Shown: positions 2,886-7,202 of the stretch, piece after piece
Position numbering within the stretch: position 1 is the stretch's first letter
Layout: every line of letters starts with the position of its first letter
Origin: Candidatus Heimdallarchaeota archaeon
GTDB taxonomy: Archaea; Asgardarchaeota; Heimdallarchaeia; Heimdallarchaeales; Kariarchaeaceae
Reading direction: 5' to 3'
DNA length: 8,304 nt
Assembly (NCBI GenBank): GCA_021399405.1
Contig: JAAFKL010000139.1
Coordinates: 1 to 8,304 of the forward strand
The notes under the pieces: model-generated
The model's input: the letters and a program-made list of their open reading frames with translations, nothing else
Database searches by the model: none
Told to the model about the DNA's origin: nothing
Position numbers and translations under genes: made by a program

Positions 2886-4829
2886 TCAGAGTCGTTTTCT
2901 TTTAATTCTTGTTGAAATTAATCCTATCAATGCAAAACTCGCGAGTATTGTAATTAAAGATAAGGGAGTTTGATCTCTTTCCGATGTACTAACCTCTTGA
3001 ACTGTAGCAGTGATTTCATGTGTGATAACCTTAAAATTACCTGCATTATCTGTCACATTGAGAGTTATGATGTACTCTCCATTATATCTAAATTTAATAT
3101 TGATTTGCTCCAGACTAGTTACATTTATTGTCAATCCGCTCAATCCGTTACCCCATGATAAGCTTGCAAAAGCTACACCAGTTGGGTTCACACCTTCATC
3201 TTTGAAATTGAACTCAATTGTCACACGTCCAATTCCATCAGTGAAATTTGATGGTGAGATGAAATTCGCAATTGGTGATGTAGTATCCAAACGATAAATC
3301 GCAGTTATTTCCCTAGTATTTTCTATACTGTATCTCCCTTGATTTGGATCTGTGGTATTTACAATCTCAAAGGTATTAGTGACAGAAATAGTAACTAAGT
3401 GAATTCCTTCAATAGTTACATCTTCACCGGCATTTGAAAAAGATAAAGTTAGATTTTCCAATCCCACAATTGATCTTGATAAATCAGTGGTATTGGAGAC
3501 TATAGTTGCACTTATCACAGAACCTCGTAAGGTTGAATATTCCCAATCAATGAAACCCCTCGAATGTCTAGAAATTGTATCATTTGCAGTAAGCAATGTG
3601 ACATCTGGTCGGGCATCTCTAATAAGAATGGAACGTGGAGCGGTTTCATTATATACACTGCCAAAATACGTCACATAAGCCTGTACCTGCAATAAATTCG
3701 AAGCTTCAAAATCAGCATTGATTACTACATTGAATATTGTAACTGTTTGAGTGAAATTAGCACTATCAATTGTTTTGTTGATTTCTTGCTTATTGACAAT
3801 TGGAGTTGTAAGACTGGTTTCAATCCAATCAACAAGTGGTTCATCTGAGCTATCATTCTCGTATAATCGATATCTATAAGAGAATTCATCATTATCAGTT
3901 GCATTAACAGTAGTTACATTGAATACAATAGTATCGGCATCAGTGTACTGAAATTCAATAGATTTTGAGTCATCGAACTGATTTAAGGCTTCAGTAAAGG
4001 TTGTATTAAACTCAAACCCGTTAGAAAGTGTATGAAATATTGGTTCATCTGTAGATGCCCTTTCAAATCCGTACTCGTTTGATGCAGTAAAGTAAACCCA
4101 TCGCTGAGTTAAGGTGTAGTTAAATTCAAACCGTAAAACATTTCCAGCATCAGAGACTTGAACCATTGTTTCTTTCTCAGATGAGCCATTATACAATGCT
4201 TCTGTAGAATTTCCAAAAGCAAGAGTTACTACTGTTGAATTAGTAGAGTCTACAGCTTCATAAACTATGAGAACTTCTGTTCCAATAGCTGTATAGAATT
4301 CATCAACTTGATTTCGATCAACTGTATCATCGTTTGGTGTCCCACCAACTACATCAACAAAATTAGGAAATTGCGAACCCTCAGCAGTCCACATTTGATG
4401 ACCTAATGCGTTATCTACAAAATCCAATTCTTCTTTAGTATTGTTGGTCAAAGTATTTGACCATGAATATGCAAAGAAATAGGTATATTCAGTAACATTT
4501 AGTTCAATTTCATAAAATGAATCTGGTCCTAGACTACTATCTAAAGTAAAATTTCTTCCTGTGATTGGATCTGTATCTAAACCACTGCCTTCACCGACTA
4601 ATACTAATCCATCTACATCAAATCGATCCGCCTTGTATAAGATGGTTACAGTTTGATTTTCATCAAAGATGTAATTATTTGATTCTCCACTGGGATTTAC
4701 ACCCCTAAATGTTGGTTCAGAAGGTTTTGGAGGATCTTCAGCTAGAACAATACTCAAATATTGAGTAGGGTATAAACTGATCACCATTAATAATATAATA
4801 ACAAGAAATTTTCTTTTCATAAGCGACAC
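2886..4829 (-). CDS. Secreted, sequon-rich surface protein with a C-terminal membrane anchor, function unknown
   Basis: I do not recognise a named family. The 647 residues start with a basic n-region (MKRK) and a hydrophobic signal sequence to about residue 30. The body is beta-rich with few cysteines. Residues about 516-607 form a clear Ig-like or cadherin-like unit ending in NVTDNAGNF, and the preceding 100 residues look like a related unit. Residues 622-640 are a single hydrophobic span followed by the basic tail RIKRKRL, so the protein should face outward on a C-terminal anchor. I count 22 N-x-S/T sequons, consistent with heavy archaeal N-glycosylation. No catalytic motif is visible. The start is either GTG at 4829, which has GAGG five bases upstream, or ATG at 4820, which gives MKRK like the neighbouring protease; the second would be 644 residues. 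The subtilase follows 96 bases downstream on the same strand, suggesting a shared extracellular role such as substrate capture, tethering or a surface-layer component. Confidence 0.9.
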   Translation of the reverse strand: MSLMKRKFLVIILLMVISLYPTQYLSIVLAEDPPKPSEPTFRGVNPSGESNNYIFDENQTVTILYKADRFDVDGLVLVGEGSGLDTDPITGRNFTLDSSLGPDSFYEIELNVTEYTYFFAYSWSNTLTNNTKEELDFVDNALGHQMWTAEGSQFPNFVDVVGGTPNDDTVDRNQVDEFYTAIGTEVLIVYEAVDSTNSTVVTLAFGNSTEALYNGSSEKETMVQVSDAGNVLRFEFNYTLTQRWVYFTASNEYGFERASTDEPIFHTLSNGFEFNTTFTEALNQFDDSKSIEFQYTDADTIVFNVTTVNATDNDEFSYRYRLYENDSSDEPLVDWIETSLTTPIVNKQEINKTIDSANFTQTVTIFNVVINADFEASNLLQVQAYVTYFGSVYNETAPRSILIRDARPDVTLLTANDTISRHSRGFIDWEYSTLRGSVISATIVSNTTDLSRSIVGLENLTLSFSNAGEDVTIEGIHLVTISVTNTFEIVNTTDPNQGRYSIENTREITAIYRLDTTSPIANFISPSNFTDGIGRVTIEFNFKDEGVNPTGVAFASLSWGNGLSGLTINVTSLEQINIKFRYNGEYIITLNVTDNAGNFKVITHEITATVQEVSTSERDQTPLSLITILASFALIGLISTRIKRKRL

Positions 4830-5105: not shown

Positions 5106-7202
5106 TTAATGGTTTAAACTTACTAGTTGTGACGGATTCAATGAATTTTTACATACAGGGCATTCTCCTTTGATTTTCAACCATTCTTTAATATGAGTGG
5201 AATGTGATTCATGGCTGCAATAGGGACATGCTACAATAAAATCAGAAACAAGCAGTGGCCCTTTGCACACAGTACAAAGTGGCAGCATTGCATTGCATTT
5301 TGGACAAGGATCTTTTACCTCTGTAATAATGGTATTACACTCAAAACATTGGGGTTTTGCTTTAATTCTAAATAGTTGTTTGCTCTTTACAAAATACTTG
5401 TTCACTAATTTTCCATCATAATATCCCCTTGCGATAAGGATAGAGAGGTTGTTAATGAGATCATCCTTATGTATTATGGAATTTTTAGAAAGCTCATTCA
5501 TTGAGATCCTATTGTTCTTAAACGCAGCACTTTCGATGGCCTGTATTGTGGATTGTAGATTCTTTTCTAATTCGTTTATTGGGATATTTGGCTGGGGTTG
5601 TCTTCTTTCTATGACACGTATTGATTTACGAGTAGTTTCAGCAACTAATAAACCAGAACCAATTATTAAATAAATTTTACTATATGCTTGGATTGCAGTT
5701 AAAGCAAATTTACTCCTAATTTCCTTTAAAGAAATTTTTTCTTTCATTAGAATAAGTCCTAGTATTTCTTGATCTAATTGAGGTAAATCGGTCACCTGAA
5801 CTAATGGTGGTAGTTTTGGAATTTCAGTTAATGTAAGAACTGAATCCTTTGCAACTGCGTTTGCAATACCACGAGAAATGAAGACGTAAGCTTTTTCTCT
5901 TGCGGTTTCACGATCAAGTTGGAGAAGTGCTGCAATTTTAGGCCAAGATATGACTTGTTCAGATATTAATGCTCCTAGAATTATTCGTTCCCAACTTTCC
6001 AACGCAATACTGTGTATGGAAGTTATTTTGGCTATATTAGTAAGTTCAAACGATTCTGCTGTTCTCATCGCACCGTCGATCTGGCCTGAAATATATAGAT
6101 CAATAATCCCTTTGATAGCCTCATAACGCTTGACACCCATTTTTTTCATGATAGTTTTCACATTGATCCTTTTTTCTGTACCAATAAGCCCTAAAAGTAC
6201 CCTATAATTAAATAGAGAAGAAGCCACAAGCTGATCAATTGGAATAACTCTAGTTGCCTTATATGGTTTCAATGGTTTCAAAAAACCTTTTGTTGACATA
6301 TTGAAAGGAATTTCTCGAGTTGCAGTTAATCTGGCGACCACTTGTAGTAGAGATGCTCGATGTGTATTAAGAACAGAAGAAAGTTCTCGCAACGATGCTG
6401 TTTTCCTCAAGTTTATGTATCCAATTGTTAATTTCTCGATTTCAGACATCATTTCAACTGGTTTCTGAGGAAATAATACAAGAAAATGTTTTATCTGAAT
6501 TATGACTTCCGTCGCCTTAATCTTTGATTTATGGATTGTAAAATTACATAAAATCATGTTCGATAATATCATATCAACAATTATGGCCTGAACTTTATGT
6601 TCAGGGAGTTCAAGGTTATTTGATATCTCGTTGAACGTCGTTTGTTCTCTAAGAATTGCATAACCGATAACTTCTTTCTCCCGTTTAGATACTTCATCAG
6701 CAGAGATTTTCGGTAGTTCGAAATGAATAAAGAATTCAAAATGACGTTCAGTAACTTTACTAGAAGAAATTAGACCCTGAGTAATATAAATGGCTAAAAT
6801 ATGAACAACAGCCTCGAACGTTATAGAAAATGCTTTTTGTAATTCTTCAATAGAAACCTTGAATCTTGCTTTTAGGTATGCTAGGAAAATGCGATCATCA
6901 AGCGTTAGATTGGGGCTTTGTCTCTCGAATTTATAATTAACAGAACTTAACAGGAAAGTATCAGATGTGAAGTGACCTTCAATCAGTTTTGATTGCAATA
7001 ACCGACCAATTTTTTCTTCTAGGTCCAATCTTTTCATATTTAATAGCTCTTGCAATAGCTTTAGCTTCACTTCCTTAAAATGAAGTATTGAGCCGATTAG
7101 AATAGAGATTTCTGAATCCTTTAATTTGGAAAAATATGGCCTGACGTGAGTTAATGGATTAACTGTTTCCGTTTCAAGTTCAACATCTTCCATTGATCTC
7201 AC
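5106..7202 (-). CDS. Tandem winged-helix (PCI/UFL1-like) protein with C-terminal zinc ribbon and RING-like finger
   Basis: The 698-residue product lacks a signal peptide or membrane span, so it is cytoplasmic. Residues about 33-613 contain some eight units of 55-65 residues, each with the pattern of a winged helix: three helices and a short wing, with phrases such as LYISGQIDGA and LIARGYYDGK. Approximate units are 33-85, 100-160, 172-228, 252-308, 325-388, 400-458, 472-530 and 544-613. The wing phrases recall PCI-domain and UFL1-type winged helices. C619-x2-C622 and C633-x2-C636 form a zinc knuckle pair. C643-x2-C646, C662-x-H664-x2-H667-x2-H670, IKEWL and C681-x2-C684 follow RING-H2 spacing, with His as the sixth ligand. 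A scaffold role, with RING-mediated ubiquitin-like transfer as one option, is inference; DNA binding or complex assembly are alternatives. The start is GTG at 7202 with a weak AAGGAA 12 bases or so upstream; ATG at 7193 is possible. The gene follows pdxT by 70 bases. Confidence 0.93.
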   Translation of the reverse strand: MRSMEDVELETETVNPLTHVRPYFSKLKDSEISILIGSILHFKEVKLKLLQELLNMKRLDLEEKIGRLLQSKLIEGHFTSDTFLLSSVNYKFERQSPNLTLDDRIFLAYLKARFKVSIEELQKAFSITFEAVVHILAIYITQGLISSSKVTERHFEFFIHFELPKISADEVSKREKEVIGYAILREQTTFNEISNNLELPEHKVQAIIVDMILSNMILCNFTIHKSKIKATEVIIQIKHFLVLFPQKPVEMMSEIEKLTIGYINLRKTASLRELSSVLNTHRASLLQVVARLTATREIPFNMSTKGFLKPLKPYKATRVIPIDQLVASSLFNYRVLLGLIGTEKRINVKTIMKKMGVKRYEAIKGIIDLYISGQIDGAMRTAESFELTNIAKITSIHSIALESWERIILGALISEQVISWPKIAALLQLDRETAREKAYVFISRGIANAVAKDSVLTLTEIPKLPPLVQVTDLPQLDQEILGLILMKEKISLKEIRSKFALTAIQAYSKIYLIIGSGLLVAETTRKSIRVIERRQPQPNIPINELEKNLQSTIQAIESAAFKNNRISMNELSKNSIIHKDDLINNLSILIARGYYDGKLVNKYFVKSKQLFRIKAKPQCFECNTIITEVKDPCPKCNAMLPLCTVCKGPLLVSDFIVACPYCSHESHSTHIKEWLKIKGECPVCKNSLNPSQLVSLNH

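Follow-up and report, generated by a model that had tools for sequence, protein, structure and literature searches.

A predicted array of winged helices with a C-terminal RING-type finger: a candidate scaffold-type ubiquitin ligase of Asgard archaea

The 8,304-nt stretch analysed here (the window; Candidatus Heimdallarchaeota archaeon, contig JAAFKL010000139.1) contains a gene for a large protein in which a series of winged helices (WH) is followed by a zinc-binding C-terminus. This raises the question of whether the protein acts in a ubiquitin-like modification system, in another kind of complex or on nucleic acid. Our answer is that it is probably a RING-type ubiquitin ligase (E3) of Asgard archaea with a built-in WH scaffold. 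What was computed is the predicted architecture and fold class, the conservation of zinc ligands and hallmark residues, and the matches to ubiquitin-conjugating enzyme (E2) and ubiquitin in the family's class. A preliminary description of the locus had proposed a ubiquitin-like-modification scaffold or a relative of the ancestor of UFL1, PCI and Nse1 complexes. The WH body, the RING with its E2-facing residues and the ubiquitin- and E2-bearing class agree with a scaffold of this kind; however, a specific tie to UFL1, PCI or Nse1 found no support, the WH resemblance being generic (full-model Foldseek TM-scores by query length [TMq] of 0.07–0.13).

The open reading frame (ORF) extends over positions 5106–7202 of the minus strand, begins with GTG and encodes 698 aa. 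Because its relatives begin at the ATG at 7193, three codons inside this ORF, the protein is probably 695 aa in length. Residues are numbered here on the 695-aa protein, the ORF numbering of the preliminary description being three higher. The AlphaFold2 (AF2) model of the full protein (mean predicted local distance difference test score [pLDDT] 87.5, predicted TM-score [pTM] 0.70) contains eight WH in tandem, as anticipated from the about eight units noticed earlier, and its predicted secondary structure includes no beta-propeller or alpha-solenoid. We assign with good confidence a predicted architecture in which eight tandem WH are followed by a CxxC..CxxC zinc ribbon and, at the C-terminus, by a RING (Table 1). 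The zinc tail folded alone with a pLDDT of 87.4, and in the models the C-terminus is a ribbon followed by a RING, not two simple zinc ribbons.

Conservation was assessed in 36 sequences (16 database proteins, the window's included, and 20 from genomes), which were gathered by whole-protein searches and class membership, with G001, G002, G007 and G008 first reached by the finger pattern. All twelve Cys and His are invariant in the 36, comprising, in ORF numbering, four in the ribbon (C619, C622, C633 and C636) and eight in the finger (C643, C646, C659, C662, H667, H670, C681 and C684). At position 664 of the ORF, 11 sequences have His, 22 Asn, two Tyr and one Ser. The preliminary description had placed every Cys and His that it named correctly, but it omitted C659, which like C662 is present in all 36 sequences, and it counted H664, which is not conserved. 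Because the conserved ligands include C659 and exclude H664, the layout C-x2-C-x12-C-x2-C-x4-H-x2-H-x10-C-x2-C is, by its spacing, a RING variant with C-x2-C as ligands 3 and 4, and not the textbook RING-H2 core that had been reported. Retention of the twelve ligands across 33–82% full-length identity is more than chance. The hallmark residues are kept in all 36 sequences as well, namely a hydrophobic residue before Cys2 (V in 32, I in four), the Trp and Pro of the finger, and a basic linchpin (K in 20, R in 16). The finger-core pattern matches a single place in the window and none of 200 shuffles; as it was built from the same family, this is no independent test.

The best structural matches of the finger are RING/U-box domains, with a root-mean-square deviation (rmsd) of 1.1–1.3 Å. 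A model of the C-terminal tail drew on the window together with 14 of 16 WH-type loci from the finger-pattern scan; in superposition, the Prp19 U-box fits this tail model with an rmsd of 1.1 over 55 residues, and RNF4 in complex with UbcH5a-Ub superposes on it too. A RING profile search, suggested earlier for the finger, returned Arkadia-class E3 RINGs first when the tail profile was used (E 1.9e-8), with WDR19 at 2.3e-5. The target thus shares a RING sequence profile with Arkadia/RNF165-class E3s, although its ligands 3 and 4 are C-x2-C and theirs C-x-H. E3s of that class are not known to have a WH body.

The genomes of the family's class carry ubiquitin and E2, so that none of the three outcomes named as refuting the preliminary description (no winged helices, two simple ribbons at the C-terminus, homologues only where a ubiquitin-like system is lacking) was observed. 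Class counts cover 58 genomes of the class of Heimdallarchaeum endolithica, in which the window, an Asgard sequence, is placed by its relatives, the window's own genome not being among the 58. E2 matches were found in all 58 and ubiquitin matches in 55 (53 over cut-off), and 14 control genomes gave no match to either. Whole-genome search revealed long family matches in 32 of the 58 (split over contigs in G011 and G031, and ending at a contig end in G020), and 30 of these 32 have a ubiquitin match. Outside the class (227 genomes), matches were found in G227 (profile 255–692, 732-aa frame) and, in two pieces, in G179. A shorter paralogue (G033:C157:1779-2840, 515-aa frame) matches the family profile at 334–691. 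Apart from the window protein itself, the protein search gave 13 relatives, of which P0005 and P0010 are partial and were excluded from alignments; four more came from a search that started with the most distant relative. The source names are Heimdallarchaeota LC_2 and Kariarchaeaceae, and one relative is annotated 'E3 ubiquitin protein ligase'. The 16 full-length sequences, including the window's, are 33–82% identical to the window protein. There was no eukaryotic name among the protein search matches, a repeat search using the alignment gave no further relative among the matches listed, and no relative was found in viral contigs scanned with P0014 or in a first genome-contig scan with A1.

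In the mechanism that we propose, the C-terminal RING would bind the charged E2 (E2~ubiquitin) via V642, W671 and P679, and the linchpin K682 would hold E2~ubiquitin in its reactive form. With its zinc ribbon and its arc of eight WH, the protein would present a substrate or partner complex, to which ubiquitin would pass directly from the E2. We infer E2 binding and ligase activity, and an array of WH that binds protein rather than nucleic acid. According to the accessible part of the report on srfp, an archaeal E3 of Caldiarchaeum subterraneum, I30Q abolished the reaction, and W58A and R69A impaired it (PMC5654768). We read the V/I, W and K/R of the finger as the equivalents of srfp I30, W58 and R69, by spacing and not by comparison with the srfp sequence. 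The E2-facing I/V and W, the linchpin K/R and the matching spacing are shared by the target, srfp and the ubiquitin-adjacent small Asgard RINGs; unlike these small proteins, which lie beside ubiquitin or E2 genes, the target has 695 aa and eight WH and lies outside a ubiquitin cluster.

A finger-core pattern scan of the genome collection revealed at least 114 loci. Of 80 titles among the matches listed, 77 name an Asgard group and three (L031, L032 and L062) only 'archaeon'. The architectures include small RINGs and forms of about 430–470, 690 and 1020 aa (including a 1022-aa form). Apparent N-terminal membrane segments were seen by eye in the RING proteins of L003, L036, L041, L047 and L071. 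The hallmark count over these loci took in 115 places, seven of them unparsed, and 97 distinct fingers; V/I is present in 96 of the 97 listed and a K/R linchpin in 66, and the Trp and Pro, imposed by the search pattern, are no evidence here. RING matches number from one to at least 20 per class genome, in many architectures. The class genomes appear to hold an E3-like repertoire, not a single srfp. In at least nine of the 114 loci listed, the RING ORF has a ubiquitin gene no more than 150 bp away (Table 1), these nine not being independent, since several come from the same groups; Hermod-, Hel-, Borr- and Sifarchaea appear in their titles (the title of L099 not included). RING and ubiquitin are on the same strand in eight of the nine, an E2 is also present in six, and in five of the nine the RING has an x12 loop like that of the target. 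Among 12 ubiquitin/E2 regions examined, four have a RING by motif. In three of them, G003 and G004 (loop x16) and G049 (loop x12), the RING has 111 aa and is flanked by ubiquitin and E2; the fourth, L206, has a looser finger. L204, L205 and L206 represent another cluster type, which consists of a ubiquitin-like gene, an E2 of 173–177 aa and a 344–388-aa protein with a RING-level match; of these three loci, L206 alone has a finger by motif.

Several results weigh against a ligase. Genomic linkage with ubiquitin-like or E2 genes, which the preliminary description had looked to, was not seen: no ubiquitin or E2 is among the matches listed in 20 neighbourhoods of the gene, and on this ground and on its length the protein was rejected as a member of the srfp type. 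No RING by motif is present in eight of the 12 ubiquitin/E2 regions, including those of G001, G033 and G035, the latter two close to the window's type. G017 and G025 have the family and no ubiquitin match. Because 26 of the 58 class genomes, with RING-level matches only and no long match, still have E2, the protein is, judged by its distribution, no core component, gaps in metagenome-assembled genomes being possible. The target finger is, by shared residues, of a general Asgard RING type without special closeness to ubiquitin-linked RINGs, because the five with the x12 loop share 17–21 of 46 residues with it versus an Asgard median of 18 (WH-type relatives from the pattern scan, 16–27). Finally, the whole ribbon-RING tail has its best Foldseek match in IFT-A (8bbg_A; E 2.3e-6, 86 columns, TMq 0.71, rmsd 3.4) and its next in SEA/GATOR2 (8adl_G; E 3.5e-5, TMq 0.52, rmsd 7.2), neither of which the preliminary description had named, and the top PDB match of the full-family profile is WDR19/IFT144 (E 2.9e-8), the best E3 being RNF24 (5.2e-6).

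These tail and profile matches, together with the absence of ubiquitin genes beside the gene, speak for the main rival reading, a structural RING in a large scaffold subunit. In IFT-A and SEA/GATOR2, subunits are joined through pairs of zinc ribbon and RING at the C-terminus, and the bodies of the subunits are made of propeller and solenoid. The tail of the target resembles theirs in having a zinc ribbon and then a RING, with a similar fold. However, in the alignment WDR19 has no counterpart of the finger's second Cys, its two His or its Trp, whereas no ligand or E2-facing residue is missing from any of the 36 sequences of the Asgard family, and the model of the target has neither of the two body elements. 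We consider a structural role possible but unlikely. A multi-WH protein that binds DNA or RNA in the manner of TFIIIC, RPC62 or SelB, with the zinc tail as an accessory, seems distinctly improbable given that the WH units are near neutral, with mean net charges of +0.5 to +4.1 in the 36 sequences, and that the RING is the best-conserved folded domain (0.65 vs 0.48–0.59 for the WH units), the 459–471 linker being the sole part above it (0.67).

An ancestral or cognate UFM1-type scaffold ligase, kin to UFL1/UFBP1, can hardly be entertained: a Foldseek search with the full model does rank the UFL1-DDRGK1 chimera 8b9x first (E 2.6e-5), the DDRGK Pfam model matches six of 12 members (best 4.3e-4) and all three genomes with a UFC1-like gene (G001, G010 and G024) hold the family, but TMq for the chimera is 0.09 with an rmsd of 14.6, PF09743 is unmatched in the window protein at E<=1, UFC1-like genes occur in only three of the 58 genomes and in none of G033–G035, the top three by family score, and where PF09743 does match in the class (weakly, in 19 of 58 genomes, with 17 over cut-off), it does so in other genes. 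UFL1 membership was rejected on the unmatched PF09743 and the rarity of UFC1-like genes. As described in the available part of PMC9627666, UFL1/UFBP1 is a scaffold-type ligase of WH repeats that uses UFC1 and has no RING or other known E3 features; the target is like it in its WH-repeat body and putative scaffold type, and unlike it in having a RING and no sequence match. The UFC1-like genes (L179, L180) match at E 1.4e-5 to 3.1e-6, and many of the weak UFL1-like ORFs in the 19 class genomes are about 265 aa. The UFC1-like and UFL1-like genes may possibly belong to a UFM1-type system separate from the WH-RING protein. Membership in the PCI family was rejected because the profile match is incomplete: the Pfam PCI match is above cut-off but covers only 36–70 of 84, and the model shows WH units without the helical repeat. 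Nse1 of Smc5/6, in which two WH precede a RING variant, is like the target in domain order.

On the minus strand of the window lie a partial pdxS, pdxT, the WH-RING gene, a gene for a PKD-domain protein whose start is signal-like, and a gene for a subtilisin-like protease. pdxS and pdxT lie ahead of the gene in the window and in four of the five loci of its type (L181, L183, L184 and L185), the fifth, L182, starting at a contig end; the PKD protein and the protease lie downstream in the window and in all five. In L188–L199, a glutamine synthetase, a small protein and an ABC ATPase are nearby (Pfam names checked in L196 only); the small protein, which we label MazG-like, has no Pfam match. The PKD-domain protein (window 2886–4829; L181–L185, L189–L198) is retained near the RING gene in two lineages, and the PKD proteins of the two are 25–29% identical while the remaining neighbours differ.

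Table 1. Features of the WH-RING gene in the window, and RING loci linked to ubiquitin genes (residues of the 695-aa protein)
Feature	Position or loci	Strand	Remarks
WH8-zinc ribbon-RING protein gene	5106..7193	minus	ATG 7193; GTG 7202 is the alternative start
Winged helix 1	6939..7118	minus	residues 26-85; AF2 model
Winged helix 2	6726..6902	minus	residues 98-156; AF2 model; Pfam FeoC match
Winged helix 3	6483..6686	minus	residues 170-237; AF2 model; partial Pfam PCI match
Winged helix 4	6273..6443	minus	residues 251-307; AF2 model
Winged helix 5	6033..6206	minus	residues 330-387; AF2 model
Winged helix 6	5823..5996	minus	residues 400-457; AF2 model; best-conserved WH
Winged helix 7	5604..5780	minus	residues 472-530; AF2 model
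Winged helix 8	5379..5564	minus	residues 544-605; AF2 model
Zinc ribbon C616-x2-C619-x10-C630-x2-C633	5295..5348	minus	invariant 36/36
RING C640-x2-C643-x12-C656-x2-C659-x4-H664-x2-H667-x10-C678-x2-C681	5151..5276	minus	V642, W671, P679 within
RING linchpin K682	5148-5150	minus	conserved as K/R
Compact RING-ubiquitin(-E2) gene groups	L012, L014, L021, L025, L030, L058, L078, L079, L099		

In the literature searched, which was without bioRxiv preprints and most subscription papers, no title or abstract opening describes an Asgard WH-RING protein. WH proteins of the Asgard ESCRT system appear in the parts available of two papers (PMC10936438, PMC9192718), and three others mention ubiquitin, with 'E3 ligase' and 'RING domain' absent from the text examined (PMC10307638, PMC12872458, PMC12993045). 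A 2024 E3 survey, in its accessible part, gives no homologues of its E3 set in Archaea or Bacteria, although the C. subterraneum RING E3 is mentioned there (PMC11354881). The wider question is the origin of the large eukaryotic E3 repertoire, and srfp is the only archaeal E3 with demonstrated activity that was found in the literature searched, as far as the available portions of these sources go. From a class of Asgard archaea near the eukaryotes, the protein described here would add a large, conserved multi-domain E3 candidate with complete E2-facing residues; it also offers a possible prokaryotic counterpart to the tail of zinc ribbon and RING in IFT-A and GATOR2. More speculatively, and with considerable doubt on our part, Asgard archaea might have diversified RING E3s across the phylum, multi-domain scaffold E3s and the tail of the IFT-A/SEA/GATOR2 type might predate eukaryotes, and the eukaryotic tails might be decayed descendants of a ligase module.
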